Under the pieces are notes generated by a model that saw only the letters and a list, made by a program, of their open reading frames with translations, had not been told where the DNA came from and searched no databases. Position numbers and translations under genes: made by a program. Positions 5,121 through 21,786 of a stretch of 55,629 nt of DNA are shown in pieces (positions within the stretch are counted from its first letter, which is position 1; every line of letters starts with the position of its first letter). The DNA comes from a virus, in IMG/VR virus record IMGVR_UViG_3300049479_000313, positions 1 to 55,629 of that record. One strand, written 5' to 3'.

Positions 5121-5123
5121 ATC

Positions 5124-5728: not shown

Positions 5729-5735
5729 GACGACG

Positions 5736-6287: not shown

Positions 6288-6613
6288 CCGACGCCGTCCC
6301 GGAGGGCATGGAACAGCGGGCGTTGTTCCTCCGCCTGATTAACGAGGCCCTTGGGCCGCATCTCCCAGCGCCCGTGGCCGCGCTGTTGCGCACGGTCCAG
6401 ACGGGTGAGCTGCCGACCGCGCCTCCGGTCCCAGACGTGCCATGGGACTTGGCCACGTGGGCAGCGGAGCTGCCCTGCGAGCAAGCTCATGCACTGACGA
6501 CGGACTTGGGTGCCGTGGGCGACTTGTTTACCAACGTGGCGGGCGTCGTAGGCCTGCTGCACCTTCGCGCGCATCGAGGGATCACCCCGCCGAAGAACGG
6601 CCTCGTGTCCTGA
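6284..6613 (+). CDS. Hypothetical protein (109 aa)
   Basis: Begins MTDAVPEGMEQRALFLRL. The start lies on ATGA with the previous gene and has AAGGAGGCCGT directly upstream, a strong ribosome site. It is predicted mostly helical, with a proline-rich linker (TAPPVPDVPWD) about residue 46. No family is recognised. A hairpin follows its stop, which suggests it ends a transcription unit. Confidence 0.65.
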   Translation: MTDAVPEGMEQRALFLRLINEALGPHLPAPVAALLRTVQTGELPTAPPVPDVPWDLATWAAELPCEQAHALTTDLGAVGDLFTNVAGVVGLLHLRAHRGITPPKNGLVS

Positions 6614-6617
6614 CGCT

Positions 6618-6640
6618 TCCGGGGCCCGGGCGCCCCCGGA
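6618..6640 (+). terminator. GC-rich hairpin, terminator-like
   Basis: The arms TCCGGGG (6618-6624) and CCCCGGA (6634-6640) pair perfectly around a nine-base GC loop. It is just after the stop at 6613 and before the strong leader CAGGAGAG of the next gene. No T-run follows, so it may be a processing or attenuation hairpin rather than a full terminator. Confidence 0.45.
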
Positions 6641-6685
6641 CCAATTCGCGCCCGACATCCCACATTCACAGGAGAGTTACCCCGT

Positions 6686-7507
6686 ATGGCAAAGACCAAC
6701 CTTCCCGCCACGGCAGCGGCGCCGTCCGCTGCCCCGAGTACGGACGTCATGTCCGACGAGGATCGACGCCGTATGCTGGCCGACGCCGCGAGCGACGGCA
6801 TGGCCTTCGAGAAGGAGGATCTTGCGGTCCCGTTCCTGCGCATCGCACAGGACCTGACGCCGCAGACCAAGAAGCACGAGCCCTCGTACATCGCCGGGTT
6901 GGAACCGGGCGATCTGTACCACACCGTGACCGGCGAGATGTGGAAGAACCCGGTGGGCGCTGTGGTGGTGCCGGTGGCGTTCACGCGCAGCTTCACCGAG
7001 TGGTGGCCCCGGAACAGCAAGCAGGGCAAGGGCTTCGTCAAGGACTGGGGCGTGGACGGCAGCGAGCTGGAGCGCTGCACCCGGGACGACAAGAACCGCG
7101 ACATCACCGAGCGCGGCACCCAGATCACCCGGGCGGCCCTGTACTTCGTGCTCGTGGTCAATCCGGAGACGGGCGAGTACCAGCAGGCAGCGCTGTCGCT
7201 GTCGGGCACGCAGCTCAAGCACGCCAAGAAGTGGAACGCGCTCATCAGTCAGTACAAGATGCGCGGCATTCCGGGGTTCGGGAAGTGCTACCGGCTGACC
7301 ACCGTCATCGAGAGCAACGATCAGGGCAGTTGGTCGGCGCTGCACGTGGAGGCGCACATCAACACGCTGCAGCTGCCGAACGGCGCCGAGATCTACGAGG
7401 CGGCCAAGGCGTACGCGGGCCTTGTGGCAACGGGCGCGGTGCAGGTCAAGCACGAGGACCAGGAGCCCACCGGAGCCGAGGGCGATGGAGCCAAAGTCCC
7501 CTTCTGA
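6686..7507 (+). CDS. Putative ssDNA-binding/recombination-associated protein (273 aa)
   Basis: Begins MAKTNLPATAAAPSAAP. After a disordered Ala/Pro-rich N-terminus (1-25), the core reads FEKEDLAVPFLRIAQDLTPQ, then GDLYHTVTGEMW and VPVAFTRSFTEWWPRN. This matches a phage family often labelled ssDNA-binding or recombination-associated. The C-terminus is acidic (EDQEPTGAEGDGAKVPF) and ends in Pro-Phe, like the partner-recruiting tails of SSBs. It has its own strong leader (CAGGAGAGTTACCCCGT) after a hairpin, consistent with high expression, and contains no CGTTAGGC word. The family label is from memory, so moderate confidence. Confidence 0.6.
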   Translation: MAKTNLPATAAAPSAAPSTDVMSDEDRRRMLADAASDGMAFEKEDLAVPFLRIAQDLTPQTKKHEPSYIAGLEPGDLYHTVTGEMWKNPVGAVVVPVAFTRSFTEWWPRNSKQGKGFVKDWGVDGSELERCTRDDKNRDITERGTQITRAALYFVLVVNPETGEYQQAALSLSGTQLKHAKKWNALISQYKMRGIPGFGKCYRLTTVIESNDQGSWSALHVEAHINTLQLPNGAEIYEAAKAYAGLVATGAVQVKHEDQEPTGAEGDGAKVPF

Positions 7508-7706
7508 GTTCGCCGCTGCGCGGGCGGAACTGCAGACGTGGGTGAAGACGCATGTGGTGGCTGACCAGCACGCAGAGGTCAGCCGCCTCATCGCGGCCTA
7601 CGTGGCCGCAGCGGTGCGACGGAAGGTGCAGGAACTGGCCGTGATTCGGTCCGTCGCCGAGCTCCAGCAACGGGTAAAGGACATTCTCTCTCGCACACGA
7701 CGATGA
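7485..7706 (+). CDS. Hypothetical small helical protein (73 aa)
   Basis: Begins MEPKSPSEFAAARAELQTW. It overlaps the end of the putative SSB by 23 bases in another frame and the helicase start by ATGA. The whole chain is predicted helical with heptad-like hydrophobics (LQTWVKTHVVADQHAEVSRL). A helicase-loader or adaptor role would fit the position but is not shown. Confidence 0.6.
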   Translation: MEPKSPSEFAAARAELQTWVKTHVVADQHAEVSRLIAAYVAAAVRRKVQELAVIRSVAELQQRVKDILSRTRR

Positions 7707-8884
7707 CCACGACGACGCAGGACCCGACGACGACGGTGCGCCTGACCCGCGCGCAGGAGCAAGCTGTGCAAGCCGTGCAGGCGTGGCGCCACCGGGCCGA
7801 TGACCCCTTGTTCTGGATGACGGGGTACGCGGGCACGGGCAAGAGCACGGTAGCCCGCTACGCGGCGGAAGGCGGCATCGTGGCCTTCCTCGCGCCGACG
7901 GGCAAGGCCGCCGCCGTGCTCCGGCGCAAGGGGGCCGACGGGGCCAGCACCATTCATCGGGTGCTGTACACCCCAAAGCAGCGCAGCAGCACCGCGTTGC
8001 AGCAGCTGACCAACATGCTCCAGCGTGCGGCGGGCCCCCTGGAACGGGCGGAGATCCAACGCAAGCTGGCCGACGAGATGGAGCGGCTGAAGCAGCCGCA
8101 CTGGGAGTATAACGAAGCCACATGGCTGCGCAGCGCGGACCTCGTGGTGGTGGACGAGGCCAGCATGGTCAGCGAGAAGGTGCTGCTCGATCTGCTGCGC
8201 ACTGTGCCCAAGGTGCTGTGCCTCGGAGACCCGGCGCAGTTGCCGCCCGTCATGGCGAAGTCGCCCTTGCTGGACCGGCGCCCGGACTTCCACTTGGAAG
8301 AGATCCACCGCCACTCGCTGGACAGCGCCGTCTTGCGCGCCGCCACCTATGTGCGACAGCATGGGCGCCTGCCGGGGCGCAGCGACGGGGACGACTATCG
8401 GGAAGTCCCGTTAGGCGAGGCCAACTGGGACGTGTTCCGCACGCCGGATCAGGTGCTGGTGTCGACGAACGAGGCCCGGCGCAACGTCAACACCCGGTTC
8501 CGAGCCCGGCTGGGCCTGACCGAGACCCTGTGCCCGGGCGATCGTATTGTGGTGCTCCGCAACAGCTACAACGAAGGACTCTACAACGGCACCACGGCGC
8601 GCGTGGTGGCTTGCACGGAGGACAGCATGTTCCCGAACACGTACTACACGGACGTGCTGTCGGACGAGGGCCCGGCCGAGAACATCAGTCTCCAGCTGCA
8701 AGAGGATCCTGCGAAGATGCACCGCGAGTCCGTGCCCGCCACCTATGGCTACGCGCTGACGGTGCACAAGGCACAGGGCAGTGAGTGGGATCATGTGCTG
8801 GTGTGGGTGCAGGGCAAGGTGAGCCCCGCGTGGCTGTACACGGCCCTTACCCGGGCGTCACAGCGGCTCACGATCGTCCGATGA
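7703..8884 (+). CDS. Dda/RecD2-like superfamily 1B helicase (393 aa)
   Basis: An ATP-dependent 5'-3' helicase of the Dda/RecD class is inferred. Walker A is GYAGTGKST (residues 41-49), Walker B VVVDEAS (148-154, D151-E152), motif III CLGDPAQLPPV, the motif IV region EIHRHS, and C-terminal UvrD_C_2-type motifs YALTVHKAQGSEWDHV and YTALTRASQ. The length is close to Dda (about 440). An insertion of charged helix (about 95-135) separates motifs Ia and II. The next gene starts at its stop codon (ATGA), so the two helicases are probably co-translated. Contains CGTTAGGC at 8409. Confidence 0.92.
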   Translation: MTTTTQDPTTTVRLTRAQEQAVQAVQAWRHRADDPLFWMTGYAGTGKSTVARYAAEGGIVAFLAPTGKAAAVLRRKGADGASTIHRVLYTPKQRSSTALQQLTNMLQRAAGPLERAEIQRKLADEMERLKQPHWEYNEATWLRSADLVVVDEASMVSEKVLLDLLRTVPKVLCLGDPAQLPPVMAKSPLLDRRPDFHLEEIHRHSLDSAVLRAATYVRQHGRLPGRSDGDDYREVPLGEANWDVFRTPDQVLVSTNEARRNVNTRFRARLGLTETLCPGDRIVVLRNSYNEGLYNGTTARVVACTEDSMFPNTYYTDVLSDEGPAENISLQLQEDPAKMHRESVPATYGYALTVHKAQGSEWDHVLVWVQGKVSPAWLYTALTRASQRLTIVR

Positions 8885-10371
8885 AGGACGTGCGCGTGCT
8901 GTTTGGCCCGCCCGGCACGGGGAAGACCACGGCCCTGCTGGACATGGTGGACACGTTCTTGGACGAGGGCGGCGACCCGGGGCGCCTTGTGTTCAGCAGC
9001 TACACGCGGCAAGCCGCGCGGGAGGCCCGGGAGCGCGCGGCCGATCGCTTTGGGCTGGAGGACGAGGCCCTCCCCTACTTCCGCACGCTGCACGCGCTGG
9101 CCTTCCGCTTGTTGGGGCTGCGCCGCAGTGATGTGCTGAGTGACGACGATTACAAGGACGTGGCCAACAGCTTGGGTCTTGGCCTGAGCGGCCAGTGGGC
9201 CCGGGGTGCGGGCCATCCGGGCCAACAACGGGGCGACGAGTGCGCGGCCATCTATGCGTGGCACCGGGCCCGGGGCGGGACGTTGGCGGATGCGTGGCGG
9301 GCGGTCGGGACGGGCAACGTGCATCTCACGCAAGTCCAGACCTTCGTGGACGCGTTAGGCGAAGTCAAGCGCGCCCGGCACCGGCTGGACTTCGCCGACA
9401 TGTTGGACGAGTGCCATGTGGCTCCGCCCGTGGATCTGGTGATCTTGGACGAGGCGCAAGACCTGAGCGACGCGCAATGGCAGTTCGCCGTGCGCTTGGC
9501 CCGGAACGCCACGCGCGTGGTGGTCGCCGGGGACGACGATCAGGCCATCTACGACTTTGCCGGGGCGCATAGTGCCCGGTTCCGGGGTGTCGAGGGGCAG
9601 CGTCAGGTGCTGACCCAGTCGCACCGGCTGGCCGCGCCCATCCACCGTGTGGCCGAAGCCGTGGCCACACAGATCAAGTCCCGCGTGGCCAAGGCGTACC
9701 ATCCCGCCGCGCACGAGGGGCGGGTGCACACCGTGCCTACGCTGGACCACGTCACGTTAGGCGACGGCACGGTGCTACTGCTGGCTCGGCACAATCACCA
9801 GCTGCGGGAGCTGGTGTCCGTGGCTCGGGCCCAAGGCGTTGTCTACCACCATCAGGGGCGCTGGTCTACCGACACGGCGGCGGTGCGCGCGGCTGTGGCG
9901 TACGAGCGTCTGCGCCGGGGCGAGGGCGTGGCCCCGGACGTGGCTGACGCCGTGCGCTTGCTGGTGCCGGGGGCGGAATGGCAGGTGGTGCCGGGCACCA
10001 ATGCCCCGGTGCGCTGGCACGCCATCCGGTGGCCCTTTGAGGGGCGTCCCGAGTGGTACACGGCGCTGGTGCGCCTGGATGGCGATGACGTGGCCTATGT
10101 CCGGGCTCTCCGGCGTAAGGGAGAATCACTCCGAGGCCCCGGACGCGTGCGCATCAGCACCATTCACGGCGCCAAGGGCGGACAGGCCGATCATGTAGTG
10201 CTCTTGACGGATGTGAGTGCCCGCACCTACAATGGTGCCTGGATGGCGGGCGACGCGGAGGCCCGCGTGTGGTATGTGGGCGCGACGCGGGCCGCTCGCA
10301 CGTTGACGTTAGTTCGTTCACGCGGTCCCCGGGTCTGGCCCGGGTGGCCCGCGTTAGGCGTAGGCATCTAA
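8881..10371 (+). CDS. UvrD-like superfamily 1A helicase, second copy (496 aa)
   Basis: Starts MKDVRVLFGPPGTGKTTALL at the ATGA overlap. Walker A GPPGTGKTT is at residues 9-17, Walker B VILDEAQDLSD (D190-E191), motif III AGDDDQAIYDFAGAH, motif IV SHRLAAPIHR, motif V ISTIHGAKGGQADHV and motif VI WYVGATRAARTL. It belongs to the UvrD/PcrA group but is only distantly similar to the 3364-4848 protein. It carries CGTTAGGC at 9353, 9755 and 10352. Having two 1A-type helicases and one 1B-type helicase but no DnaB-like helicase is notable. Confidence 0.92.
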   Translation: MKDVRVLFGPPGTGKTTALLDMVDTFLDEGGDPGRLVFSSYTRQAAREARERAADRFGLEDEALPYFRTLHALAFRLLGLRRSDVLSDDDYKDVANSLGLGLSGQWARGAGHPGQQRGDECAAIYAWHRARGGTLADAWRAVGTGNVHLTQVQTFVDALGEVKRARHRLDFADMLDECHVAPPVDLVILDEAQDLSDAQWQFAVRLARNATRVVVAGDDDQAIYDFAGAHSARFRGVEGQRQVLTQSHRLAAPIHRVAEAVATQIKSRVAKAYHPAAHEGRVHTVPTLDHVTLGDGTVLLLARHNHQLRELVSVARAQGVVYHHQGRWSTDTAAVRAAVAYERLRRGEGVAPDVADAVRLLVPGAEWQVVPGTNAPVRWHAIRWPFEGRPEWYTALVRLDGDDVAYVRALRRKGESLRGPGRVRISTIHGAKGGQADHVVLLTDVSARTYNGAWMAGDAEARVWYVGATRAARTLTLVRSRGPRVWPGWPALGVGI

Positions 10372-10375
10372 CCCC

Positions 10376-10387
10376 AAGGAGGTGATC
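10376..10387 (+). promoter_or_regulatory. Twelve-base perfect Shine-Dalgarno sequence
   Basis: AAGGAGGTGATC is the full complement of the 3' end of typical bacterial 16S rRNA (GATCACCTCCTT). It is followed at once by TTG (10388), five bases from GGAGG. It decides the start of the next gene and predicts strong ribosome capture. Confidence 0.7.
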
Positions 10388-11170
10388 TTGTATGAGATAG
10401 TCGCCGATGGTATCCCGCTGCCCGGGCGCTGGCCGTTGGCCGTGGCGGCGGCTCGGGCCCGGGCCTTGATCCGCCGGAATCGGGCCCGGAAGGCAGCGGT
10501 CTGGCCGGTGCACCGGCAATTTCTTCGTCCCACGAAAGTGTTCTTTCACTCTCTTCATCTACTCATGACGACCCTCACGAAGCCCTCGCACGCGGTGATC
10601 ACGTATGTGAACGCAGATCACCCCACGGATGTCCAGCTGCACCGCACCCCGTACGACCCGCCGGAAGGCCGGGTGGTGTGGCTCATCACCATGCCGGATG
10701 ACCTGATGCGCATGCCGATGACCGTTCTCCTGGCCGCGTACAACCGTGCCACGGGCAAGGCCATCAAGTCATTCAACACCCGCGCCAAGGGCGCAGTCCA
10801 GACGTACGCCGCGCTGCGCGGCTGGCTGGACCTCGATCTTCCTGATGTTCCCGCAGTTCCTTCTTCCCCCGAACCGACTGAGACTTCTCCCATGAAGACC
10901 AAGACCACCAAGACCAAGCGCGCCACGACCTCCAAGAAGAACACCGCCTCGGGGCGCCCCGGGCGCCGGTCCAAGTTCACCCCGGAGAGCACCATCACGC
11001 TCGTCGCCAAGGAGAATCCGAAGCGCCCGGGCAGCGCTGCGCACACGCGCTTTGCGTTCTACCGCACGGGGCAGACCGTGCAGCAGTTCCTCGACAAGGG
11101 CGGCTGGCTGGCGGACATCCGCTGGGACGAGAAGATGGGCTTCATCCGCGTGAGCGGCGCCAAGAAGTAG
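10388..11170 (+). CDS. Conserved phage hypothetical protein, probable TTG start (260 aa)
   Basis: From TTG 10388 the frame reads MYEIVADGIPLPGRWPL and stays open through an internal ATG at 10565 (MTTLTKPSHAVITYVN), which has no ribosome site of its own. The perfect Shine-Dalgarno sequence favours TTG; if so, residues 1-59 are an Arg/Ala-rich N-terminal module. Residues about 100-140 (LMRMPMTVLLAAYNRATGKAIKSF) and the C-terminus (GRRSKFTP, ITLVAKENPKRPGSAAH, FLDKGGWLADIRWDEKMGF) match a domain common in phages and bacteria with no known activity. A Lys/Thr-rich linker joins them. A DNA-binding role is plausible but unproven. Confidence 0.7.
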   Translation: MYEIVADGIPLPGRWPLAVAAARARALIRRNRARKAAVWPVHRQFLRPTKVFFHSLHLLMTTLTKPSHAVITYVNADHPTDVQLHRTPYDPPEGRVVWLITMPDDLMRMPMTVLLAAYNRATGKAIKSFNTRAKGAVQTYAALRGWLDLDLPDVPAVPSSPEPTETSPMKTKTTKTKRATTSKKNTASGRPGRRSKFTPESTITLVAKENPKRPGSAAHTRFAFYRTGQTVQQFLDKGGWLADIRWDEKMGFIRVSGAKK

Positions 11171-11172
11171 AC

Positions 11173-12012
11173 ATGCGCATCTTCATTCCGACCGCAGGAC
11201 GGGTGGGGCGCCAGCGTACGTGGCGGGCGCTCCCTCCGGCCTGGAGAGAGAAGACGGTCGTCGTCTGCCCGGCGCGAGAGCTCCCACAGCTCGCGCATTG
11301 GGACCGCGTCCCGGAGTCCGCGCTGTTGGCACAGCCGGAGGACGTGCGGACCATCTCGCACAAACGCCAGTGGATGCTGGAGCATGCCGCCGCGCTCGGG
11401 GAGGAGTCGTTCCTGATGATGGACGACGACCTGGAGTTCCATGCCCGGGAACATCCGCACCAGCCGGAGGCCTCTAGCCTCCGACGAGGCTTCGCCACGG
11501 AGGCCCGGATCGATCGGGCGCTCCGCTGGCTGGAGCATCTGCTCGATCACGAGCAGCGCGTGATTCACGGCGGATTGGGCAGTCGACAGGGCAACAACAC
11601 CAAGCAGGCGGTAGAAGTGGTGACGCGGGCGATGCATGCGTTCGCGCTGCGGCCCCGGGGCGCACTGGCCGCCGGGGTGGACTTCCGGGCGGTGTCGTGC
11701 CGCGAGGACTTCCACGACACCCTGACCTTGCTCCGCGCCGGGGCGCCGAACGTGGTGCTGCACGACGTGGTGGCTGACCCGGGGCCCTTCGGGGCGGAGG
11801 GCGGGTGCTCGGACGAACGGACCATGCAATCCTCGAACGAGGCTGCGGAGCAGCTGGCCGTGCTCTGGCCGGGGTTGGTCCGGGTGGTGGAGAAGGCGTA
11901 CTCGTCGTCCATCCCTCGGAAAGAGGTCGTGGTGCAGTGGCGCCGGGCGTACGCCGGAGGGGACGCTCCGGATGCGAGTGAGTTGTTCTTCTCGTACCGG
12001 AGCTTCCCATGA
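11173..12012 (+). CDS. TAGT-like glycosyltransferase, putative DNA-base glycosylation (279 aa)
   Basis: Begins MRIFIPTAGRVGRQRTW. The N-terminal strand and GR-RQ.TW segment, the metal-binding DDD triad in FLMMDDDLEF (D84-D86), an NNTKQAVE helix and REDFHDTLTLLRAG (E178-D179) fit a GT-A-like fold of the TET-associated glycosyltransferase (TAGT) type known from phages with modified bases. The expected role is transfer of a sugar from an NDP-sugar to hydroxymethylated pyrimidines in DNA. Downstream genes supply a kinase, a nucleotidyltransferase and a base-hypermodification protein. Assignment rests on motif memory; another acceptor is possible. Confidence 0.65.
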   Translation: MRIFIPTAGRVGRQRTWRALPPAWREKTVVVCPARELPQLAHWDRVPESALLAQPEDVRTISHKRQWMLEHAAALGEESFLMMDDDLEFHAREHPHQPEASSLRRGFATEARIDRALRWLEHLLDHEQRVIHGGLGSRQGNNTKQAVEVVTRAMHAFALRPRGALAAGVDFRAVSCREDFHDTLTLLRAGAPNVVLHDVVADPGPFGAEGGCSDERTMQSSNEAAEQLAVLWPGLVRVVEKAYSSSIPRKEVVVQWRRAYAGGDAPDASELFFSYRSFP

Positions 12013-12833
12013 TCATCCCGGGGCGGAGCGGGGCGCTCTTCGAGGTGGAGAATGGCATGCTGTGGAAGCGCATGGGGGGCGCGCGTGGGTCGGCGCGCTT
12101 GGCAGTACAGTGCGCCCGGCAGCAGGCGGCTCTCTCGTCTCACGTGCTCCCTCCCGGGATGGCGGTCACCCCTGTGACCGCCATCCAGGACGAGCGTCCA
12201 CACGTGTTCTCGTTTCAGATGCCCTTCTATCGGGAGCACCTCCATGCGACCCAGTTCGTGCAGTACGCGGGCGCGGAACAGCTGCAGGAGGCGTCTCGCC
12301 TGTTGTTGCGGCTGATGTCCGGGAATCTTCGTGCAGCGCCGTTAGGCGTGTTGTCCCCGGGGTGGAGCCGTTCCCTTGTGGAACAGCTGCAGGATCGTCC
12401 GTCCATCCCCGGGGTGGCACGCTTCACGCTGTGGGCCCGCGAGCATGACGTGTGGGGTGCGCTCATCCCGTCCGGCCCCGCCTATCACGGGGACCTCACG
12501 TGGGGCAATGTGCTGTGGTCGCTGGATCCGGGAGCCACGCCGCATCAACTGATCGACTACACGGATGCCCCATGGGAGACGCCCCTGATCGATGCGGCCA
12601 AGCTGTTGATGGACTGCGCGCTCCGCTGGACGTTCCGCCTGCAGGGGGAGGTCCCTTCCCCCACGACGGAAGTCCTGTGCGACCAGCTACACGAGCAACT
12701 GCTGGCCCAGTTGTCCCCGGATGAACGGCGCGTGGCCCGGGTGCTCCAGTACCACTACACACTTCGTCTGTTCCCGTACAACCCCACCCACGAAGACTTT
12801 CTCTCACACGAGATTCTCCGACTCTTCCCATGA
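12009..12833 (+). CDS. APH/choline-kinase-fold phosphotransferase (274 aa)
   Basis: Begins MIIPGRSGALFEVENGML. The C-terminal lobe carries YHGDLTWGNVLW (H160, D162, N167) and LIDYTDAPWETP (D183), the Brenner motif and metal-binding Asp of small-molecule kinases of the aminoglycoside-phosphotransferase, choline-kinase and sugar-kinase type. The N-lobe has a nucleotide-binding hairpin and a K (WKRMGG) near residue 20. The expected reaction is ATP-dependent phosphorylation of a small alcohol or sugar. Because a nucleotidyltransferase-phosphatase fusion follows by ATGA, it probably performs the first step in making an activated donor. Substrate unknown. Contains CGTTAGGC at 12340. Confidence 0.75.
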   Translation: MIIPGRSGALFEVENGMLWKRMGGARGSARLAVQCARQQAALSSHVLPPGMAVTPVTAIQDERPHVFSFQMPFYREHLHATQFVQYAGAEQLQEASRLLLRLMSGNLRAAPLGVLSPGWSRSLVEQLQDRPSIPGVARFTLWAREHDVWGALIPSGPAYHGDLTWGNVLWSLDPGATPHQLIDYTDAPWETPLIDAAKLLMDCALRWTFRLQGEVPSPTTEVLCDQLHEQLLAQLSPDERRVARVLQYHYTLRLFPYNPTHEDFLSHEILRLFP

Positions 12834-13894
12834 CGACACTCCTCATGCCCCTGCTGGGGCGCAGCACCCGGTTCCCCGACCTTCCGCCCAAGTGGACGCT
12901 CACGCACCCGGCCTCGAATCGCTCCCCGTTGCATGGCATGCCCATGTTCCGCGTGGCTTTGGAGCATTTGCCGGCGCAGGTCACCCATGTGGTGCTCGGG
13001 GTGCCAAACGACCGCAGCGGGTGGGTCGAGGACGTGCTGCAAAAGTTCCCGTTGCCGGGCAACGTGTCCTATGTGGTGGACGCGGCGATCGGCGCCACGC
13101 GGGATCAAGTGGACACGCTCACCCGCATGCTCACGTTCCACGAGCTAGCGCACGAGCCCATCCTGTGCCGGGACGGCGACAGCCAATTCGCCATGCCCGA
13201 GTATCCGGCGAGCCCGGGATGCTCGATCGCGGTCGCGGATGCGGCCCGGTACCCAACCGTGGCTCTCGCCAACAAGTGCTTCGTGCTCCCGGGCCCAGTG
13301 CCCGGGGTTGCCGGGGGATTGGTAGAGAAGCGCGTGGTGAGCCCCCTCTTCGGGGTGGGAGCCTACGGCTTCTCCTCTGGAGAAGAGTTCCTCGCGTCGG
13401 CGGCGATGCTGCGTCGCTCGACCGAGGAGGACTTGTACGTCTCGCACCTGCTCCGGTTGTTGATGGGCACGGGCCTCCCGGTACGGTATCATCTGGTCCA
13501 GAAGTACGAGGATTATGGCACCCTGACGGAGTGGCGTGCGTGCTACGCGGCGCATGGCACCCTGTTCTGCGACATTGACGGTGTCCTGCTCTCCTACACC
13601 GGAGCGGCCACCCGGGCGTCGGCCACCCCGCTCGCTCGCAATATCAGCGCGCTGCAGGGGCTCCCCAAGGGCTGGATGATCGTACTGACTACGGCCCGGG
13701 CGGAGTCCGAGCGCGCGGAGCTCCTGGCCCAGATCGCACGTCACCGCATCCCGTTCGACATGTTGCTCATGGGACTGCCGCGCGGACCGCGCGTCGTGGT
13801 GAACGACTCGGCGGCCAGCAACGCCGGACAGACCGCCCGGGCGCTGACCCTTCCTCGGGATAGCGACACCTTGCCGGAGTTGCTCGATGTCTAG
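12830..13894 (+). CDS. Nucleotidyltransferase-HAD phosphatase fusion (354 aa)
   Basis: Residues 1-235 begin LLMPLLGRSTRF.DLPPKW followed by GMPMFRVALEHLP, the signature loop and Lys of sugar-1-phosphate or phosphocholine-type nucleotidyltransferases, with CRDGDSQF (about 113-120) as the likely metal site. Residues 245-340 are a HAD phosphatase: nucleophile motif CDIDGVLLS (D248, D250), LTTARAESERA, and VVNDSAAS (D326). The fusion would make NDP-activated donor and dephosphorylate a related intermediate. Fused NTP-transferase/HAD proteins occur in surface-glycan loci; finding one in a DNA-modification cluster is unusual. It ends inside the next gene by 8 bases. Confidence 0.75.
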   Translation: MTTLLMPLLGRSTRFPDLPPKWTLTHPASNRSPLHGMPMFRVALEHLPAQVTHVVLGVPNDRSGWVEDVLQKFPLPGNVSYVVDAAIGATRDQVDTLTRMLTFHELAHEPILCRDGDSQFAMPEYPASPGCSIAVADAARYPTVALANKCFVLPGPVPGVAGGLVEKRVVSPLFGVGAYGFSSGEEFLASAAMLRRSTEEDLYVSHLLRLLMGTGLPVRYHLVQKYEDYGTLTEWRACYAAHGTLFCDIDGVLLSYTGAATRASATPLARNISALQGLPKGWMIVLTTARAESERAELLAQIARHRIPFDMLLMGLPRGPRVVVNDSAASNAGQTARALTLPRDSDTLPELLDV

Positions 13895-14729
13895 GCTTCG
13901 CGAGTTCGGGGCGTACATCTCGGAGCGATACGCCATCCACCAGCGCCGCTTGAAGGGGGAGCCGCCACCCTGGACCGAGGATCCGATCCTCCGTGACTGG
14001 AAATTCACCAATGTCAAGCGTGAATGGGACCGCACGACGCGGGCTCTGCGCGCCTGGACTATCCCGCACGCGCGCCATCGTCTCTTGGGACTGAACATGG
14101 CGTTGGCTCGATTCACGGGGCGCCCGGAGACGTGGTACACGGTGGGATATCAGCGGTCATGGCGCCCGGACGTCGTGGCCCGGCGCCTTGCACAACGTGC
14201 CGAGGCCGGACACAAGGTCTTTACCGGAGCGTACCTCATCTCCAACTGGGGGCGTCCGGGCAGCAAGGTCGACGTCGTCGTCCATGGCATCTTGACCCCG
14301 CTGTACGACAGCGGGCTGTTGTTGCCCGCGCGCCTGCGCCGGTTCCGGTATCTCGAGGACCTGCACCAGGAGCTCGTCCGCTTGCCCGGATTTGGGCACT
14401 TCATGGCGCAGGAGATTGAGCAAGACCTTGTGCACACGCCCGGCCTCCCACTGTGGCGCGATGCCGACTCGTTCGCGGTCGCGGGCCCCGGCGCGATGCG
14501 CGGGATCATGCGCGTGCTCGAGCAGCCGCTTCGGGGCCAATTCACCCAGGAGGATGCGCGGCGCTACATGCAGGAGTGGCGCATGACCCTGATCCCGCAT
14601 CTGCCTGAGGGGTTACTGCTGAGCGCACATGATGTGGAGTTCAACCTGTGTGAGTTCGACAAGTACGAGCGCGTGCGCACGGGGCAGGGTACCCCGCGTG
14701 CGCGCTTTACCCCAACGGAGGATGTATGA
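13887..14729 (+). CDS. Putative DNA-base hypermodification protein (5-hmdU kinase helical/aGPT-PPlase-like) (280 aa)
   Basis: Begins MSRLREFGAYISERYAIHQ. The pattern FGAYISERY...PPPWTEDPILRDWKFTNVKREWDRTTRALR, then ARFTGRPETWYTVGY, VFTGAYLISNW and a C-terminal VEFNLCEFDKYERVR matches the mainly helical phage family described in thymidine-hypermodifying phages as 5-hmdU DNA kinase helical domain or glutamyl/putrescinyl-thymine pyrophosphorylase. It would act on hydroxymethyl-pyrimidine in polymerised DNA, activating or displacing the 5-substituent. The neighbouring TAGT-like enzyme and donor-making genes support this. Whether it is kinase-linked or glycosylase-like cannot be told here. Confidence 0.75.
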   Translation: MSRLREFGAYISERYAIHQRRLKGEPPPWTEDPILRDWKFTNVKREWDRTTRALRAWTIPHARHRLLGLNMALARFTGRPETWYTVGYQRSWRPDVVARRLAQRAEAGHKVFTGAYLISNWGRPGSKVDVVVHGILTPLYDSGLLLPARLRRFRYLEDLHQELVRLPGFGHFMAQEIEQDLVHTPGLPLWRDADSFAVAGPGAMRGIMRVLEQPLRGQFTQEDARRYMQEWRMTLIPHLPEGLLLSAHDVEFNLCEFDKYERVRTGQGTPRARFTPTEDV

Positions 14730-14959
14730 AGTCATGCCTTGGCTGCCGGTTCGCGGATTGGCAGCGCACGCGCACCGGGAGGCTCCATCCGTCCGGCGAT
14801 GGACAGTGCACGTTCGTGGTCAAGGTGCCCGCGCTGCCGCTCTCCATGCGCTGGGGCGGCTCCTGGGGCCGAAATGACCTCGATGCAACGGGCGGCGCGA
14901 TCAGCCGTAAGCACTCGTTTCAGTCCCATTGTCCCTGCTACCAACCCACTCTCTCATGA
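14726..14959 (+). CDS. Small cysteine-rich protein (77 aa)
   Basis: Begins MKSCLGCRFADWQRT. CxxC near the N-terminus (C4, C7), a central C (about 28) and CPC near the C-terminus could form a zinc or redox site. It lies on ATGA overlaps between the hypermodification protein and the TS-fold enzyme, so it is part of the cassette's operon. No named family. The start follows CGGAGGATGT, a good ribosome site. Confidence 0.7.
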   Translation: MKSCLGCRFADWQRTRTGRLHPSGDGQCTFVVKVPALPLSMRWGGSWGRNDLDATGGAISRKHSFQSHCPCYQPTLS

Positions 14960-15999
14960 CCCACACTCTCAGCATCACCAACGTCAACCACGCCTATGTG
15001 GCCGGAGTCAACTTGATCCGCGACATTGGCGTGGCCGTCGCCACCCGCAATGGCCCCGCGTTCCGCGCCCCGGGCACGGTGGTCACCACGTTTCACCATC
15101 CCATGGAGCGCGTGCTGTTCGACTCGACGCGCGATGCCAACCCGTTCTTCCATCTGTTCGAGTCGCTCTGGATCCTGGCCGGGCGCGAGGACGTGCGTCC
15201 GCTCGCCTTCTTCAACAAGCGCATGGCCAACTACAGCGACGATGGCGAACGTTTCCACGGAGCCTACGGCTGGCGCTTGCGCTACGGCTTTGGCGTCGAT
15301 CAGATCGACCGAGCCATCACCATGCTCCGGCGCAACCCGCTGGACCGGCGCGTGGTGCTGTCGATTTGGCACCCGGCGCTGGACCTCGGCACGGACAGCG
15401 CGGACATTCCGTGCAACGACATGCTGAAGCTGTCGTCCGACGGCGCCCAGCTGGACCTCGTGGTGTTCAACCGCAGTAACGACATCCTCTGGGGCGCGTA
15501 CGGCGCCAACGCCGTGCAGTTCGCCTTCCTGCTGGAGTACCTCGCCGCCGGGGCCGGGCTGCGGCCCGGGCGCTTGGTGCAGGTCAGCACGGACTGGCAT
15601 TGGTACGGCAGCGACCGCCCGGCGCCGCTGGTCTACACGCCGACGATGTATGACCAGCGCCCGAACGGCGCGTGGCGCCCGTTGCTCGCCGCCGAGGAAA
15701 CGTTGGATCAACTCGACGATGATCTCGAGCTCTTGTTCGACTGCATGGAAGCCGTGGCCACGCGGAAAGCGCCAGAGTGCCTGTCGCCGAGCTTTTACAC
15801 GGCGTGGATGGCTACGGTGGCGTGGCCCATGTTCACGGCATGGCTGCACTACAAGAGCCACTGGCTGGACGGCGAACCCAAGACGCCGAACTTGCCGTTC
15901 GCCATGCGCACCTCGTACAACATCGCGGCCCCGGATTGGTCCGTTGCCGCCCTGAATTGGCTGGAGCGCCGTTACCTCAAGACCCTCACCCACCCATGA
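14956..15999 (+). CDS. Thymidylate-synthase-fold dNMP methylase/hydroxymethylase (347 aa)
   Basis: Begins MTHTLSITNVNHAYVAG. The catalytic loop DIPCNDML places the nucleophile at C153. The folate/nucleotide-binding region FNRSNDILWGAYGANAVQF corresponds to the QRSxDxxLGxPFN region of classical ThyA but with the variant sequence seen in phage dNMP hydroxymethylases. FHLFESLWILAGREDVRPL is the typical N-terminal element. It methylates or hydroxymethylates dUMP or dCMP with methylenetetrahydrofolate. The hypermodification neighbours favour hydroxymethylation (5-hmdUMP or 5-hmdCMP); plain ThyA activity is the alternative. Confidence 0.8.
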   Translation: MTHTLSITNVNHAYVAGVNLIRDIGVAVATRNGPAFRAPGTVVTTFHHPMERVLFDSTRDANPFFHLFESLWILAGREDVRPLAFFNKRMANYSDDGERFHGAYGWRLRYGFGVDQIDRAITMLRRNPLDRRVVLSIWHPALDLGTDSADIPCNDMLKLSSDGAQLDLVVFNRSNDILWGAYGANAVQFAFLLEYLAAGAGLRPGRLVQVSTDWHWYGSDRPAPLVYTPTMYDQRPNGAWRPLLAAEETLDQLDDDLELLFDCMEAVATRKAPECLSPSFYTAWMATVAWPMFTAWLHYKSHWLDGEPKTPNLPFAMRTSYNIAAPDWSVAALNWLERRYLKTLTHP

Positions 16000-16901
16000 C
16001 CTTCCTCACTCGCTATCTCCAACTCCGCCGGAGCGGCGCCGTGCGTCGCTGGCACACCGTGCCCCACGCTCCGCGCCAGACCGTGGCTGAGCACAGCTTC
16101 CACACCGCCCTGCTGGCGGTGGCTCTCTGGGGCGAGGACACCAGCAGTAAGCTGCTGCGCTGGTGCCTGACCCACGACTTGGCCGAGGGCCTTGTGGCGG
16201 ATGTGCCCGCGCCCGCCCGGTGGGCCGACCCCGCGTTAGGCGCGGCGGTGCGTCGCATGGAACAGGTGGTCGAAGCCCATCTGGACCTGACCCGGTACAT
16301 GGACCTCGACCCGGAGGACACGGCCCGGGCCAAGCTGCTGGACGCGCTGGAAGTGCTGTTCTTCGCGGCGGAGCAGGTGCGCGCGGGGGCCCGCACGGAG
16401 TTCGCCCCCATCATGGTCGCGGTGTGGGAGCGCATGAACTCGGGCATGTGGGCCCTGCCCGAGCTGATCGGCATGGAGGTCGTGCGCGAACTGGACGACT
16501 TCGTCCGGGCCACGCGCTTCCCCGCATGGCGGTGCGAACGCTGCGGCGAGTTTGCCCATGTGACCGAGCAGGCGGAGGGCCTCCGCTGGTGCCTGAGCTG
16601 CCAAGGCCATGACATCGGCACCATCATGGCCACGCGCGTGGCCCGGGAGGCGCGCATCGGCAATGATGACCCGCACGACGCGTTCGTGGCCACTCGGGCG
16701 TTGCCGTACAATCCGACTGACCGCGTCCGTGTCCGCGTCAGTGCCGTGGGAGCGTTCACCGCGTCCAACGGCATGCTGATCCGGCCCGGAACGGAAGGCC
16801 TGCGCCTTGACTACATCGCCGCTCCCGTGGGCCAGTGCTACGTGAAGCTCATGAACGAGGAGACGATTGTGACCCCGACCCTCTATTGGAAGGAGATCTA
16901 G
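15996..16901 (+). CDS. YfbR-like HD-domain 5'-nucleotidase with C-terminal zinc ribbon (301 aa)
   Basis: Begins MTFLTRYLQLRRSGAVRRW. HD motifs: AEHSFHTALL (H33), LTHDLAEGLVADVPAPAR (H60-D61, the YfbR-type motif) and LDALEVLFF (D116). YfbR removes phosphate from deoxynucleoside 5'-monophosphates; related phage HD enzymes hydrolyse selected dNTPs. A second module (about 175-205) has CERCGEF and CLSCQGHD, a zinc ribbon not found in YfbR (about 200 aa), followed by a C-terminal beta-rich part. Placed between the TS-fold enzyme and DNA polymerase, it likely removes the unmodified or competing nucleotide. Contains CGTTAGGC at 16234. Confidence 0.8.
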   Translation: MTFLTRYLQLRRSGAVRRWHTVPHAPRQTVAEHSFHTALLAVALWGEDTSSKLLRWCLTHDLAEGLVADVPAPARWADPALGAAVRRMEQVVEAHLDLTRYMDLDPEDTARAKLLDALEVLFFAAEQVRAGARTEFAPIMVAVWERMNSGMWALPELIGMEVVRELDDFVRATRFPAWRCERCGEFAHVTEQAEGLRWCLSCQGHDIGTIMATRVAREARIGNDDPHDAFVATRALPYNPTDRVRVRVSAVGAFTASNGMLIRPGTEGLRLDYIAAPVGQCYVKLMNEETIVTPTLYWKEI

Positions 16902-16905
16902 TCAC

Positions 16906-18777
16906 ATGGCCGGGCGCAAACGCGGACGGCAGGATAACAGCCTGCTCCAGGGGGACTTGTTCGACTCCCCCATGAACAACTCCACGGGCTGGGCCCCGCC
17001 CATGGAGTTTCCCCGCCTGCATGGCATGATCAGCCTCGACCTCGAGACCCGGGACGATGGGCTACGCACCGCGTTAGGCCCGGGGTGGCCCGTGGGCAAT
17101 GGACATCCCACCGGGGTGGCCGTGGCCACGGCCGATGCCGCGTGGTACTTCCCCACGCGGCATGCGCCGGGCGGCAACGTGGACGAGCGCGCGGTGTGGC
17201 GTTGGCTGCGCGACCAGCTCGGCCACGTGGATAGCGTGGTCATGCAGAATGCCACGTACGATCTGGGCTGGCTGCGCACGGTGGATGTAGCGGTGCCGTG
17301 CCCCATCCACGACACGAAGGCGATGGCGGCCCTCCTGGACGAGAACCGCAACAGCTATTCGCTGGAAGCCCTCGGCAAGGACTACCTCGGACAGGAGAAG
17401 CGCGTCGACCTGCTCGACACGTACGCCAAGCGCTGGGGCATGACCGGCAAGCCGGGGGAGAACATCTGGCGCATGCCGCCGTTCATCGTGGGCCCGTACG
17501 CGGAGATGGATGCCCGGCTCACGTTCGACTTGGCCCAGAGCTTCTTGCCCCGGCTCGCTGCCGAGGACCTCCTGGACGTGTACCAGCTGGAAATGGACTT
17601 GGTGCCCGTGCTGCTGGCCATGCGCGCCCGGGGCATGCGGGTGGACGTGCCTCGGGCCGAGCAATTGCGCGAACAGCTGCTCTCCGAGGAAGCCGACCTG
17701 CGTGATAGCATTAAGCAGCTGAGCGGCGAGTCGGTGGATCCGTGGGACGTGGAGAGCGTGGCCCGGGCGCTCAAGGCCCGGGGCATTGTGCCCGGGCGCA
17801 CGGAGGCGGGCGCCGTCAGCATCACGAAGGAGTTCCTCGCCGCCCACGCGGACGAGCGCGTGGCCCACGACGTGCTCCAGCTGCGCCGCGTGAATAAGCT
17901 GCGCAGTGGGTTCGTGGAGGGCGCGTTCCTGGCCCATGTGCAGAACGGGCGCATGTACCCGGAATTCCATCCCCTGCGCAGCGACGACGGGGGCGCCGTC
18001 ACCGGGCGCTTCAGCAGTAGCAACCCCAACGCCCAGCAGTTCCCCGCCCGGCGCGAGGAGGACGCGCGCCTGATCCGGGGGCTGATCCTGCCGGAGGACG
18101 GCTGTCAGTGGTTTGCCGCCGACTACAACCAGCAGGAGCCGCGCATGCTGGTGCACTTTGCCAGCCTCATGCAGCTGCGCCGCGCCGGAGAAGCGGCTGA
18201 GGCGTACCGGCGCGACCCGCGCACGGACTTCCATCAGTTCGTGGCCGATCTCACGGGGCTGCCGCGCAAGATCGCGAAGAACATTAATCTGGGCAAGTTC
18301 TACGGCATGGGCGGCGGCAAGTACGCGCGCAGTGTGGGCCTGCCCGTGGTGCGGGTCGACGGGCGAGAGTACGCGGGCCCGGAGGCGCAGGCGCAGCTGG
18401 ATCAGTACGATGCGCACTTGCCCTTCGTGTCGGCCTTCTACCAGCGGGCGCAAGGCGTGGCCCGGGAACGTGGCTGGGTGCGGACCATCGTGGGTCGACG
18501 GCGCCGCTTCCAGCCCGTGCACGAGCGCGGGGCCAGCCCGCACAAGGCGCTGAACGCCGTGATCCAGGGCAGCAGCGCCGACCAGAACAAGCGGGCGATG
18601 GTGGCGCTGCATCGGTCCGGGGTCGCGTTAGGCGCCGTGGTGCACGACGAGATCGACGGCAGCGCCCCGCCCGAGGACGCGGCCCTGATTACGGAGTGCA
18701 TGCAGGACTGTCTCCGGCTGGAGGTGCCCAGCGTGGTGGACTTGGCATGGGGCCCCACGTGGGGCGAGGCCGCATGA
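16906..18777 (+). CDS. Family A DNA polymerase with 3'-5' exonuclease (623 aa)
   Basis: The replicative polymerase. The exonuclease domain (about 35-230) has Exo I LDLET (D45, E47), Exo II NATYDLGWL and Exo III YAEMDARLTF (D202). The polymerase domain has motif A ADYNQQEPRMLV (D406; usual form DYSQIELR), an O-helix-like KIAKNINLGKFYGMGGG and motif C VHDEID (D581). There is no 5' nuclease domain, so the length fits T7- or phage-type Pol A. The motif A sequence NQQEP in place of SQIEL is a noticeable variant. It is separated from the HD gene by four bases. Contains CGTTAGGC at 17072 and 18626. Confidence 0.95.
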   Translation: MAGRKRGRQDNSLLQGDLFDSPMNNSTGWAPPMEFPRLHGMISLDLETRDDGLRTALGPGWPVGNGHPTGVAVATADAAWYFPTRHAPGGNVDERAVWRWLRDQLGHVDSVVMQNATYDLGWLRTVDVAVPCPIHDTKAMAALLDENRNSYSLEALGKDYLGQEKRVDLLDTYAKRWGMTGKPGENIWRMPPFIVGPYAEMDARLTFDLAQSFLPRLAAEDLLDVYQLEMDLVPVLLAMRARGMRVDVPRAEQLREQLLSEEADLRDSIKQLSGESVDPWDVESVARALKARGIVPGRTEAGAVSITKEFLAAHADERVAHDVLQLRRVNKLRSGFVEGAFLAHVQNGRMYPEFHPLRSDDGGAVTGRFSSSNPNAQQFPARREEDARLIRGLILPEDGCQWFAADYNQQEPRMLVHFASLMQLRRAGEAAEAYRRDPRTDFHQFVADLTGLPRKIAKNINLGKFYGMGGGKYARSVGLPVVRVDGREYAGPEAQAQLDQYDAHLPFVSAFYQRAQGVARERGWVRTIVGRRRRFQPVHERGASPHKALNAVIQGSSADQNKRAMVALHRSGVALGAVVHDEIDGSAPPEDAALITECMQDCLRLEVPSVVDLAWGPTWGEAA

Positions 18778-19013
18778 ATACCTACGTGCTGTTGCGAGAG
18801 ACGCGTCGGAAGGGTGACCTGATCCACGTGCACCGGACCGGGTGTGGGTGTCGCTTCCGGCGCGGCGGCATCTGGTGCTTCATCCAGGCGTCCGGCCTCA
18901 CCCTGCTGCAAACATCCTCGGCGTACACCCGCCGGGTGCAAGACTATCTACCGCATTTCGTGCGCACCCATCCGTGCGCATTTGACCCTCCTTCTTCGGA
19001 GACTTCTCCATGA
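18774..19013 (+). CDS. Hypothetical cysteine-containing protein (79 aa)
   Basis: Begins MNTYVLLRETRRKGDLIHV at the ATGA overlap with the polymerase. HRTGCGCRFRRGGIWCF contains CGC and a later C, and the chain is basic. It could be a small nucleic-acid-binding protein; no family recognised. It overlaps the lipoprotein gene by ATGA. Confidence 0.65.
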   Translation: MNTYVLLRETRRKGDLIHVHRTGCGCRFRRGGIWCFIQASGLTLLQTSSAYTRRVQDYLPHFVRTHPCAFDPPSSETSP

Positions 19014-19261
19014 CTCGACGACTCCTGTTCCTGAGCATGCTCCTCGCCAGTTGTTCTGACTCCACGGATCCTTCGCCTGCCCCGGCGCGCACGGTGGAAA
19101 GTGCCACGCGGGCCCTGGACGAGGCGCTCATCGCCCTGAACTGGGCCCAGTATGACTTGTTCGCTGTGGGCGGACGCGACATCGTGGTCAGCGTGCAGGT
19201 GGACAGCGCCATTGCGCCCCACTACTTCCGCGTACCCCGGCGCCCGGCGGTGCGCCCATGA
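19010..19261 (+). CDS. Small lipoprotein (83 aa)
   Basis: Begins MTRRLLFLSMLLASCSDST. Two arginines, a hydrophobic core (5-13) and the lipobox LASC with C15 indicate a type II signal peptide; the mature chain starts CSDSTDPSPAP, a flexible acidic tether, and continues with a short helical region. It should be lipid-anchored outside the inner membrane. Encoded among replication genes rather than lysis genes, it is unlikely to be an Rz1; a superinfection-exclusion lipoprotein is a reasonable guess. Overlaps the following gene by ATGA. Confidence 0.7.
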   Translation: MTRRLLFLSMLLASCSDSTDPSPAPARTVESATRALDEALIALNWAQYDLFAVGGRDIVVSVQVDSAIAPHYFRVPRRPAVRP

Positions 19262-19536
19262 CGACCCGCCCTGAGCTGAAGACCATTGAGCGGCTGCGCT
19301 TGGCCGCATGGTGGACCGTGCGCTGGGCCCAGAACGCGGCCCTGCGCAACGATCTCCACGCGTTTCAGGCCCAGTGTACAGCCATCGCCGTGGTGGCCGA
19401 GCCGACGGTGCTGCGGGAGCAGGTGGTGCGGCTGGGCGAGCAGTTGCAGGCGCTGGCCCTGCGCGTAGAGGATGAGCGACATCGGAACGCCATGCTGTTC
19501 GTGGCCTCGGAGGCGGAGTCCTATGCTGCCGGTTGA
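19258..19536 (+). CDS. Hypothetical helical protein (92 aa)
   Basis: Begins MTTRPELKTIERLRLAAWW. It is almost entirely helical, with a coiled-coil-like C-terminal half (LREQVVRLGEQLQALALRVEDE). There is no hydrophobic span long enough for a membrane. It overlaps the primase gene by 14 bases, suggesting coupling. Function unknown. Confidence 0.65.
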   Translation: MTTRPELKTIERLRLAAWWTVRWAQNAALRNDLHAFQAQCTAIAVVAEPTVLREQVVRLGEQLQALALRVEDERHRNAMLFVASEAESYAAG

Positions 19537-21070
19537 AGACCGCTTCCAGCACTTGTTCCGGGGCTATGGGCTGGCCTATGGGCGCTTCAACGCGGCCCCG
19601 CCGAGCGCGGGCGGCGCCAAGGTCAAGGGCCGGGCCGAAACGGTGCGGGCCCCGTTAGGCCCGGCGCAGTACGCGGCGCATCTCAGTGGGGCGGCGGGGC
19701 TGGGGGTGATCATGCTGGACGAGCGCGATCAGTGCGCCTTTGTGGCCATTGATTACGATCATCGCACCGTGGACCACGCCGTGCTGGCTCGGCAACTGGC
19801 GGAGTTGCCCGTGGTGGTGTGCCGCAGCAAGTCGGGCGGCGCGCACCTCTACGTGTTCTTCGCGGCCCCGGCCGACGCAGCGATTGCGTTGCTGTGGCTG
19901 GAGGAACTGCGCGCGTGGCTGGGGTTGCCGAGTGGGACGGAACTGTTCCCCAAGCAGACGCAGCGCGCCGATGCCAACGACATTGGCAGCTGGATTAATC
20001 TGCCCTACATGGGCGGCGACGCCAGCACCCGCTACGCCGTGCACCCGGAGGAGGGGGCGCTGAGTCTGGCGGCCTTCCTCGACTACGCCGAGAGCATGCG
20101 CGTGGCCGATCAGTCCGCACTGCCTACCTTGCCGCAGCGCGGCACCCTGTTCGCCGATGGGCCGCCCTGCCTGCAGGCGTACGAGGCCCAAGGCGGCTTC
20201 CCCGAGGGCATGCGCAACGAGGGCATGAAGGCCGTGGCCACCTATGCCAAGCGCCGCTATGGGGCCCAGTGGGAGGAGGAGCTGGTGCGGGCCAACCCCG
20301 TGATGGGGAACCTGCCCTTGGCCGAGATCAGCCACTTGGCCAAGTCCTACGGCCGGAAGGACTACACCTACGCCTGCGGCAAGGCGCCGCTCGTCACGCA
20401 CTGTGCGCGCAAGGTGTGCGTGCGACGCAAGTTTGGGGTGCGTGGCAGCGGCAGCGGCGAGGAAGAGGCCGAGCTCATGGCCGAGCTGGATGGGCTGGTG
20501 TGTGTGCAGAGCGAGCCCGACGCCTCGGGCTTGGTCGATGCGGAGAGTACCATGTGGTACCTGAACGTCAACGGGCACCGGGTGCGCCTCTCCACGGAGG
20601 AGCTCCAGAACCCGGCGGCCTTCAATCGGGCGTGCTTGGCGCAGATCCGGTTGCAGCCCTTAGCGTTAGGCGCCAAGGCATGGCGCACCAAGGTCAACGA
20701 GCTCGCGAGTGCGGCCGAGGTGCAGACCATTCCCTATGCGGCCACGCCCGACGGCATCACGTGGGCGCATGTGGGCGAGTACTTGGCCAACAGCGCCACG
20801 TGCACCGAGAAGCGACAGGTGCTCATGGGCGGCGTGTACGTGGAGCAGGGCGAGGCGCACTTTGTGCTGCATCGCCTGATGGAGTTCCTGCATGCGCGGC
20901 GCGTGCCCTTCGGGCGCGCGGAGCGCTTGCGCATCATCCTGCTGCGGCATGGGGCGCGCTTGTACCACGAGCCCCTGAACGGCGCCGCCGCCGTGCCCCT
21001 TTGGGCCGTGCCCCATGTGCCCGGGGCTCCGGCCGACGCGCCCGCTGCGGCGGTGGGTGTGGCGTTCTAA
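19523..21070 (+). CDS. Archaeo-eukaryotic-type (TOTE-like) DNA primase (515 aa)
   Basis: Begins MLPVEDRFQHLFRGYGLAY. The AEP core includes FVAIDYDHR (D77, D79, metal ligands), CRSKSGGAHLYVFF (H108), then FPKQTQ and GSWINLPYMGG, the order seen in phage primases with the TOTE-conflict-system AEP domain. The C-terminal part (about 215-500) has a Cys cluster (CGKAPLVTHCARKVCVRRK), resembling the zinc segment next to primase-helicases, but no Walker A motif is seen, so it lacks its own helicase. It would prime DNA synthesis for the PolA at 16906. Contains CGTTAGGC at 19653 and 20664. Confidence 0.85.
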   Translation: MLPVEDRFQHLFRGYGLAYGRFNAAPPSAGGAKVKGRAETVRAPLGPAQYAAHLSGAAGLGVIMLDERDQCAFVAIDYDHRTVDHAVLARQLAELPVVVCRSKSGGAHLYVFFAAPADAAIALLWLEELRAWLGLPSGTELFPKQTQRADANDIGSWINLPYMGGDASTRYAVHPEEGALSLAAFLDYAESMRVADQSALPTLPQRGTLFADGPPCLQAYEAQGGFPEGMRNEGMKAVATYAKRRYGAQWEEELVRANPVMGNLPLAEISHLAKSYGRKDYTYACGKAPLVTHCARKVCVRRKFGVRGSGSGEEEAELMAELDGLVCVQSEPDASGLVDAESTMWYLNVNGHRVRLSTEELQNPAAFNRACLAQIRLQPLALGAKAWRTKVNELASAAEVQTIPYAATPDGITWAHVGEYLANSATCTEKRQVLMGGVYVEQGEAHFVLHRLMEFLHARRVPFGRAERLRIILLRHGARLYHEPLNGAAAVPLWAVPHVPGAPADAPAAAVGVAF

Positions 21071-21087
21071 CCTTCATGGAGAAAACA

Positions 21088-21738: not shown

Positions 21739-21759
21739 CCGGTCCGCAGCGGAGTTATC

Positions 21760-21786
21760 GTGGGCCCGGTCAGGGGCCGGGCCCAC
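21760..21786 (+). terminator. GC-rich hairpin, terminator-like
   Basis: GTGGGCCCGG (21760-21769) and CCGGGCCCAC (21777-21786) form a perfect 10-bp stem with a seven-base loop, then CCCCATTTTACGG. It follows the stop at 21738 and resembles the GGGCCCGG stem at 2407. With the weak T-run it may terminate or attenuate. Confidence 0.55.

Follow-up and report, generated by a model that had tools for sequence, protein, structure and literature searches.

Six contiguous genes in the linear 55.6-kb virus record IMGVR_UViG_3300049479_000313, all 55,629 nucleotides of which are here termed the window, probably constitute a cassette for DNA-base glycosylation in which synthesis of the sugar donor is included. 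The block (11173-15999) is tightly packed on the + strand with its genes overlapping, and genes for an HD nucleotidase and a DNA polymerase are directly 3′. In the scheme proposed, an enzyme of thymidylate synthase (TS) fold would convert dUMP to 5-hydroxymethyl-dUMP which, with help from the HD nucleotidase and from the polymerase of the phage, would become 5-hydroxymethyldeoxyuridine (5-hmdU) in DNA. A HAD domain would dephosphorylate a host sugar phosphate, an APH-fold kinase would re-phosphorylate the freed sugar at its anomeric carbon, and a nucleotidyltransferase (NTase) would turn the resulting sugar-1-phosphate into a nucleoside diphosphate (NDP)-sugar. A protein of the HMUDK_hel family, with a DNA-glycosylase-like fold, would bind and present 5-hmdU in DNA, and a TAGT glycosyltransferase would move the sugar onto its hydroxymethyl group. 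The purpose is probably counter-restriction, i.e. the shielding of phage DNA from bacterial defences.

The first gene (11173..12012, +) encodes a TAGT DNA-base glycosyltransferase (GT-A fold) of a donor-linked, short-loop type. Its product matches PF20691 (E 2.8e-16, 60.5 bits, over the profile cut-off of 27.5) and PHROG 842 (E 4.3e-42), and its DDD motif, residues 84-86, is invariant in the TAGT alignment. Its sister (support 100/99) is the TAGT of another phage locus, L086. A shortened loop is common to the window TAGT (VEKAYSSSIPRKEV) and that of L086 (VQKDYVGSVQRQEV), with ETKxxW in its place in most TAGTs from loci that lack donor genes (a few deviate, and the L043 TAGT is incomplete in this comparison). 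A profile made from these two TAGTs only retrieved, besides the L086 contig, a single further locus, L127. The short loop recurs in its TAGT (VVDRAYLKSVPRKEV), and the three TAGTs form one clade (support 100/100). Donor genes accompany 3/3 short-loop TAGTs and 0/13 others (16 representatives; Fisher p 0.0018), L086 having been first noticed for its donor genes and L127 having been found by the TAGT search.

Gene order in L086 is HMUDK_hel-TAGT-APH-HAD-NTase-Nmad5-TS-HD, and in L127 the TAGT gene is followed by those for a sulfotransferase, APH, HAD and NTase, and then by TS and HD. The set of TAGT, APH, HAD, NTase, HMUDK_hel and TS is present in both of these further phages. A single clade of the HMUDK_hel proteins from the window, L086 and L127 is rejected (approximately unbiased test, p-AU 2e-5), and since the TAGTs do form one clade, the transferase and donor genes appear to stay together from one chassis to another. 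L086 and L127 have orthologous donor enzymes (33-40%), of which those in the window are only distant relatives; this implies either that functions were kept while genes were replaced, or that the genes were gathered anew. Searches of IMG/VR with the APH and NTase of L086 return only their own contig, and a search of phages with its APH gives no match. Besides the sulfotransferase in L127, a PIG-L-type deacetylase, an APS-kinase-like protein and a sulfotransferase flank HMUDK_hel at L104:596-3019; the gene sets of these two loci suggest that sulfated or deacetylated sugars may be placed on DNA.

Donor synthesis is attributed to the second and third genes. The former (12009..12833, +) encodes an APH-fold kinase whose small-molecule substrate is probably a sugar. 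It matches PF01636 exactly at the cut-off (E 6.5e-5, 23.2 bits), with the APH HGDxxxxN and D motifs present as HGDLTWGN and IDYTD and conserved with a marine-virus relative; searches with it found no relatives among phages and IMG/VR. The latter (12830..13894, +) encodes a fusion in which a sugar-1-phosphate nucleotidyltransferase occupies residues 1-240 and a putative HAD-type phosphatase residues 243-354, and has full-length relatives in viruses and in bacterial metagenome-assembled genomes (MAGs). Its product has no strong Pfam match. In its model (pLDDT 84), residues 3-241 adopt the fold of sugar-1-phosphate nucleotidyltransferases (4EVW, Z 24.3, root mean square deviation (rmsd) 2.6, 222 aligned; UDP-glucose pyrophosphorylase, Z 22.9). 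The GxSxRF/PK and DxD motifs are conserved (G10, S12, R14, P20, K21, D115, D117), and the C-terminal third carries the HAD-like motifs DIDG, TTAR and VVND.

In every full-length locus examined, 16 besides the window, an APH gene immediately precedes that for NTase-HAD (one marine virus, ten IMG/VR loci, several of them near-copies, and five bacterial MAGs; an eleventh IMG/VR locus, L042, ends within the NTase gene and is outside this number). The next gene is that for an NDP-sugar epimerase/dehydratase in 12 of the 16, identified by Pfam for L013 and L028 and by sequence for the others, and further sugar and polysaccharide genes surround the pair in the loci inspected. With such neighbors, the very likely product of the module is an NDP-sugar that serves glycans, and the module would have been recruited into the window cassette. 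The proposal, in a preliminary description of the block, that kinase, nucleotidyltransferase and phosphatase are makers of an activated donor gains comparative support from these loci, from L086 and L127 and from the TAGT clade. As the search of the record yielded no arabinose-5-phosphate isomerase, the sugar phosphate would be host-supplied. A chain of the same kind as that proposed, with HAD phosphatase, anomeric kinase and nucleotidyltransferase, is used for MupP-AmgK-MurU sugar recycling in Pseudomonas (PMC5371407); the window module is instead linked to a DNA transferase. NCBIfam models have no match in window proteins, so membership of the AmgK, MurU or MupP families is unsupported, and MurU is one among many NTase folds matched by the 12830 model.

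The fourth gene (13887..14729, +) specifies the HMUDK_hel protein, of DNA-glycosylase-like fold and without a kinase domain, which is the candidate subunit for presenting DNA that contains 5-hydroxymethyluracil (hmU). Its match to PF18723 (E 7.5e-42, 144 bits) covers profile positions 5-277 of 281. The best structural match to its model (pLDDT 91.6) is PaMx11 gp46 (8Z2N; Z 12.0, rmsd 3.9, 225 aligned), or PUGT, which we take to be a 5-phosphomethyl-dU glycinyltransferase, and the next is the 8-oxoguanine DNA glycosylase MjOgg (3KNT, Z 11.1). These matches are suggestive only, as helical proteins reach such Z values; nearly all of the best-scoring ones are DNA-base enzymes. Of the earlier designation ‘5-hmdU-kinase/aGPT-PPlase-like’ the family stands and the kinase does not. 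Only the helical domain is matched, the protein has no Walker A motif, and a hidden Markov model (HMM) for P-loop kinases has no match at E<10 in any open reading frame (ORF) of the window. The window thus lacks a complete 5-hmdU DNA kinase, in which a P-loop domain is attached or adjacent to the helical one.

Partners of HMUDK_hel were surveyed in 80 IMG/VR loci, isolates and the window (searching with the single window protein yields 1 locus, with an alignment of five, 574). The neighbor is a TAGT in 59 loci, a P-loop kinase in 14 (for one of which, Golden, the Walker A motif was read by eye), another putative glycosyltransferase in 14 (Pfam Glycos_transf_1 being clear in one, and weak or absent in others), and none recognised in 6. 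Kinase and TAGT occur together beside HMUDK_hel in 0 of the surveyed loci. Merging at 70% identity leaves 37 groups, comprising 12 with kinase, 9 with TAGT, 10 with another glycosyltransferase and 6 with none (Fisher p 0.016); on the 37-row tree the partner labels change often, 18 times, which is close to the 20.2 expected as the mean after shuffling. We infer that HMUDK_hel is an exchangeable hmU-DNA subunit presenting 5-hmdU to varying enzymes, in the window a sugar transferase. Donor genes are absent from 57 of the 59 TAGT+HMUDK_hel loci (window counted), and the TAGTs of these loci have a longer loop where readable, mostly ETKxxW.

Two groups of putative GT-B-type glycosyltransferases replace TAGT beside HMUDK_hel, one in L058, L084, L105, L106, L108, L121, L085 and L094 and the other in L044, L114, L118, L120 and L117. 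Elsewhere, inserts between HMUDK_hel and TAGT look FkbM-like (methyltransferase; L045:2743-3459, L093:9089-9775, L111:7898-8581) or radical-SAM-like (L072:1382-2350, L119:2425-3381), and from their sequences might provide further decoration.

The last gene of the block (14956..15999, +) encodes a TS-fold deoxypyrimidine hydroxymethylase, most likely acting on dUMP. Its product matches PF00303 (E 6e-19) and PHROG 5131 (E 1.7e-88), and with gp58 of Pseudomonas phage M6 it has 40% identity and an NRSND-WGAYGAN motif in common. Retention of that motif, together with the presence of HMUDK_hel, points to 5-hmdU rather than 5-hydroxymethyldeoxycytidine (hmdC) as the acceptor. The adjoining gene (15996..16901, +), outside the range of the preliminary description, encodes an HD-domain nucleotidase (PF13023, E 1e-9; YfbR-like, E 2e-8) that probably shapes the dNTP pool and whose position is common to M6, PaMx11 and L086. 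Its C-terminal half has a CxxC...CxxC pattern, and the shorter M6 homologue is without that half. Next is a family A DNA polymerase (16906..18777, +; PF00476, E 1.7e-49), a conserved neighbor of the cassette, syntenic with M6 gp62.

Start and stop codons overlap as ATGA at 12009, 12830, 14726 and 14956, the overlap at 13887 is of 8 nt, and a further ATGA at 15996 joins the TS gene to that for the HD nucleotidase; the TS start is most likely the ATG at 14956, not the TTG at 14929. Between HMUDK_hel and TS is a small Cys-containing ORF (14726..14959, +) with ATGA overlaps at both ends, 5 Cys and a weak coding signal, and without a match in Pfam, PHROG or NCBIfam profile searches. Five of the six ORFs have a family or fold match, which puts the gene block well beyond chance. 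The ORF coordinates bear out the six contiguous overlapping genes that were described at the outset, and Pfam, PHROG, folds and motifs agree with the families then named (TAGT, APH, NTase-HAD, HMUDK_hel, a Cys-rich ORF and TS); the 11173 and 13887 proteins, whose placement in unrelated families would have told against that description, both stay where it put them.

By gene content and order, the window is an altered M6-type locus. M6 has 5-(2-aminoethyl)deoxyuridine (5-NedU) in its DNA (PMC6449724), and its order is gp54 (a Walker-A protein), gp55 (HMUDK_hel), gp57, gp58 (TS), gp59 (HD) and gp62 (Pol). The window has the same order of HMUDK_hel, TS, HD nucleotidase and PolA as the thymidine hypermodification loci of M6/PaMx11 type (Mesyanzhinovviridae; 5-NedU and relatives), and tblastn finds homologues of M6 gp55, gp58, gp59 and gp62 in it. 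No homologue of M6 gp51-gp54 is found in the record by tblastn, and HMM and phmmer searches confirm that there is neither an M6-type P-loop kinase nor a glycinyltransferase. Where M6 has amino-acid pathway and kinase genes the window has TAGT, APH and NTase-HAD, and, being without a P-loop kinase, a gp46/gp51-type glycinyltransferase with its tailoring enzymes, or homologues of M6 gp52 or gp53, it falls outside the amino-acid type. The closest portal proteins to that of the record are from Bordetella phages of Mesyanzhinovviridae (~31%), and positions 5000-25000, compared by megablast with the phage collection, give no match. ‘Terminase small subunit’ is the annotation that L014:7414-7977 (M6 gp54), L018:7432-8001 (PaMx11 gp49) and PHROG 800 give to the P-loop neighbor of HMUDK_hel, a probable 5-hmdU DNA kinase.

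In pelagiphages a core of TS, aG/PT-PPlase1 (the HMUDK_hel family), TAGT and 5′-deoxynucleotidase has already been reported (PMC9599517), and there, as in related IMG/VR loci and the window, HMUDK_hel, TAGT and TS are together near PolA. The idea that making a donor goes beyond known hypermodifying phages does not hold, there being precedents in RB69 and Thanatos (PMC6024577, PMC12838424) and in SP-15 (PMC5977210). RB69 has arabinosyl-hmC DNA and candidate sugar-nucleotide enzymes (PMC6024577), its ORF053c being a Pfam NTP_transferase and its ORF052c being matched by the APH profile (E 2e-8); Thanatos TH1_063 is a tested UDP-xylose pyrophosphorylase (PMC12838424). These pentose-on-cytosine systems have, like the window, a phage-encoded NTase and APH-type protein, but they follow the cytosine track with another glycosyltransferase and no HMUDK_hel reported. 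In RB69 the NTase and phosphotransferase (APH-type) are a 561 aa fusion, near which is an arabinose-5-phosphate isomerase; with NTase, APH and HAD functions and no isomerase found in the record, the window has part of an RB69-type donor module. RB69 ORF051c (L128:1209-1595), a small protein annotated phosphoheptose isomerase, adjoins the NTase-phosphotransferase genes and has the HAD-like motifs DVDD, TAR and DDK; it may supply the phosphatase step in making the arabinose donor. SP-15 attaches glucose and phosphoglucuronate to a derivative of thymine and carries surface-polysaccharide-like genes (PMC5977210). As in the reading of the window favored here, a thymine-derived base bears sugars and polysaccharide-type genes have been recruited, but the chemistry of this glycosylated, phosphoglucuronated dihydroxypentyluracil and the gene set are different, and base synthesis there takes place at the nucleotide level, ahead of DNA synthesis.

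Other interpretations of the block need to be considered. That the TAGT uses a host NDP-sugar only, e.g. UDP-glucose, with APH and NTase-HAD serving a surface or receptor glycan, like the sugar clusters of marine viruses, and their place in the block a coincidence, seems unlikely. Most TAGT+HMUDK_hel loci do lack donor genes, and glycan-type clusters are the usual setting of this APH/NTase-HAD subtype, but the two genes overlap others within one block, and in L086 and L127 these functions recur at that position alongside a TAGT from the one distinct clade. Marginally less probable again is that the donor is a small phosphorylated alcohol or amine of choline/ethanolamine type, with a choline-kinase-like APH protein, a LicC-like cytidylyltransferase and transfer of a CDP-linked phospho-group onto hmU. 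LicA and LicC are a known kinase and cytidylyltransferase pair, and APH homologues have weak scores against choline kinase PF01633. However, the closest NTase folds are sugar-1-phosphate nucleotidyltransferases, an NDP-sugar epimerase/dehydratase is usually next to the module, no transferase other than the TAGT glycosyltransferase was found in the block, and CDP-choline needs no HAD phosphatase.

Highly improbable is substitution of the APH-fold protein for the P-loop kinase, such that with HMUDK_hel it would phosphorylate 5-hmdU in DNA, NTase and TAGT acting later. Though APH and NTase-HAD genes sit in the region of the M6-type P-loop kinase, the pairing of APH with this NTase-HAD gene is also seen at loci that have no HMUDK_hel, which argues for a small-molecule substrate, and HMUDK_hel and TAGT are without kinase or APH in 57 further loci. 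Against glycosylation from a phage-made donor several points nevertheless weigh. Gene identities, folds, gene order, the tie of this TAGT clade to donor genes and the varying partners of HMUDK_hel are results of computation; the catalytic steps, the 5-hmdU acceptor, the sugar and the counter-restriction role are inferred. The virus record is linear and may be missing genes. The APH match does no more than equal its Pfam cut-off, and the HAD domain falls under all of them (13.6 bits vs 27.5). The link of donor genes to TAGT consists of three loci, one of them noticed because of those genes, and with the window APH and NTase-HAD only remotely related to their L086 and L127 counterparts, equal chemistry is an assumption. 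Exclusion between kinase and TAGT comes down to the 37 groups once near-identical loci are merged. The acceptor might be hmdC, as the T4 gp42 alignment is ambiguous around the TS specificity residue.

Phage donor synthesis (RB69, Thanatos, SP-15) and the hmU core cassette (pelagiphages) are known separately, and what is new is their combination on the thymine route. No report was found of the combination, of the short-loop TAGT clade or of a partner-swapping view of HMUDK_hel, in literature whose coverage is incomplete for several key papers. A novel modified pyrimidine in virion DNA is plausible. A fuller picture, which we hold tentatively and at somewhat under even chances, is of phage DNA bearing on hmU an unusual sugar not activated by the host, base-J-like but phage-built, with HMUDK_hel as an hmU-DNA adaptor on which glycosyltransferases and kinases can be swapped, and with a short-loop TAGT clade that is specific for a phage-made donor. 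The cassette joins an M6-type hydroxymethyluracil chassis with phage-made sugar nucleotides, so far described apart. If this is correct, a new glycosylated thymine is predicted, more such cassettes could be sought by the three-gene signature and by the short loop that marks the TAGT clade, and HMUDK_hel, so far a ‘kinase domain’, would be seen instead as a general subunit for hmU-DNA. Base labelling may profit from new DNA-sugar enzymes, which may also give insight into phage escape from restriction and CRISPR.

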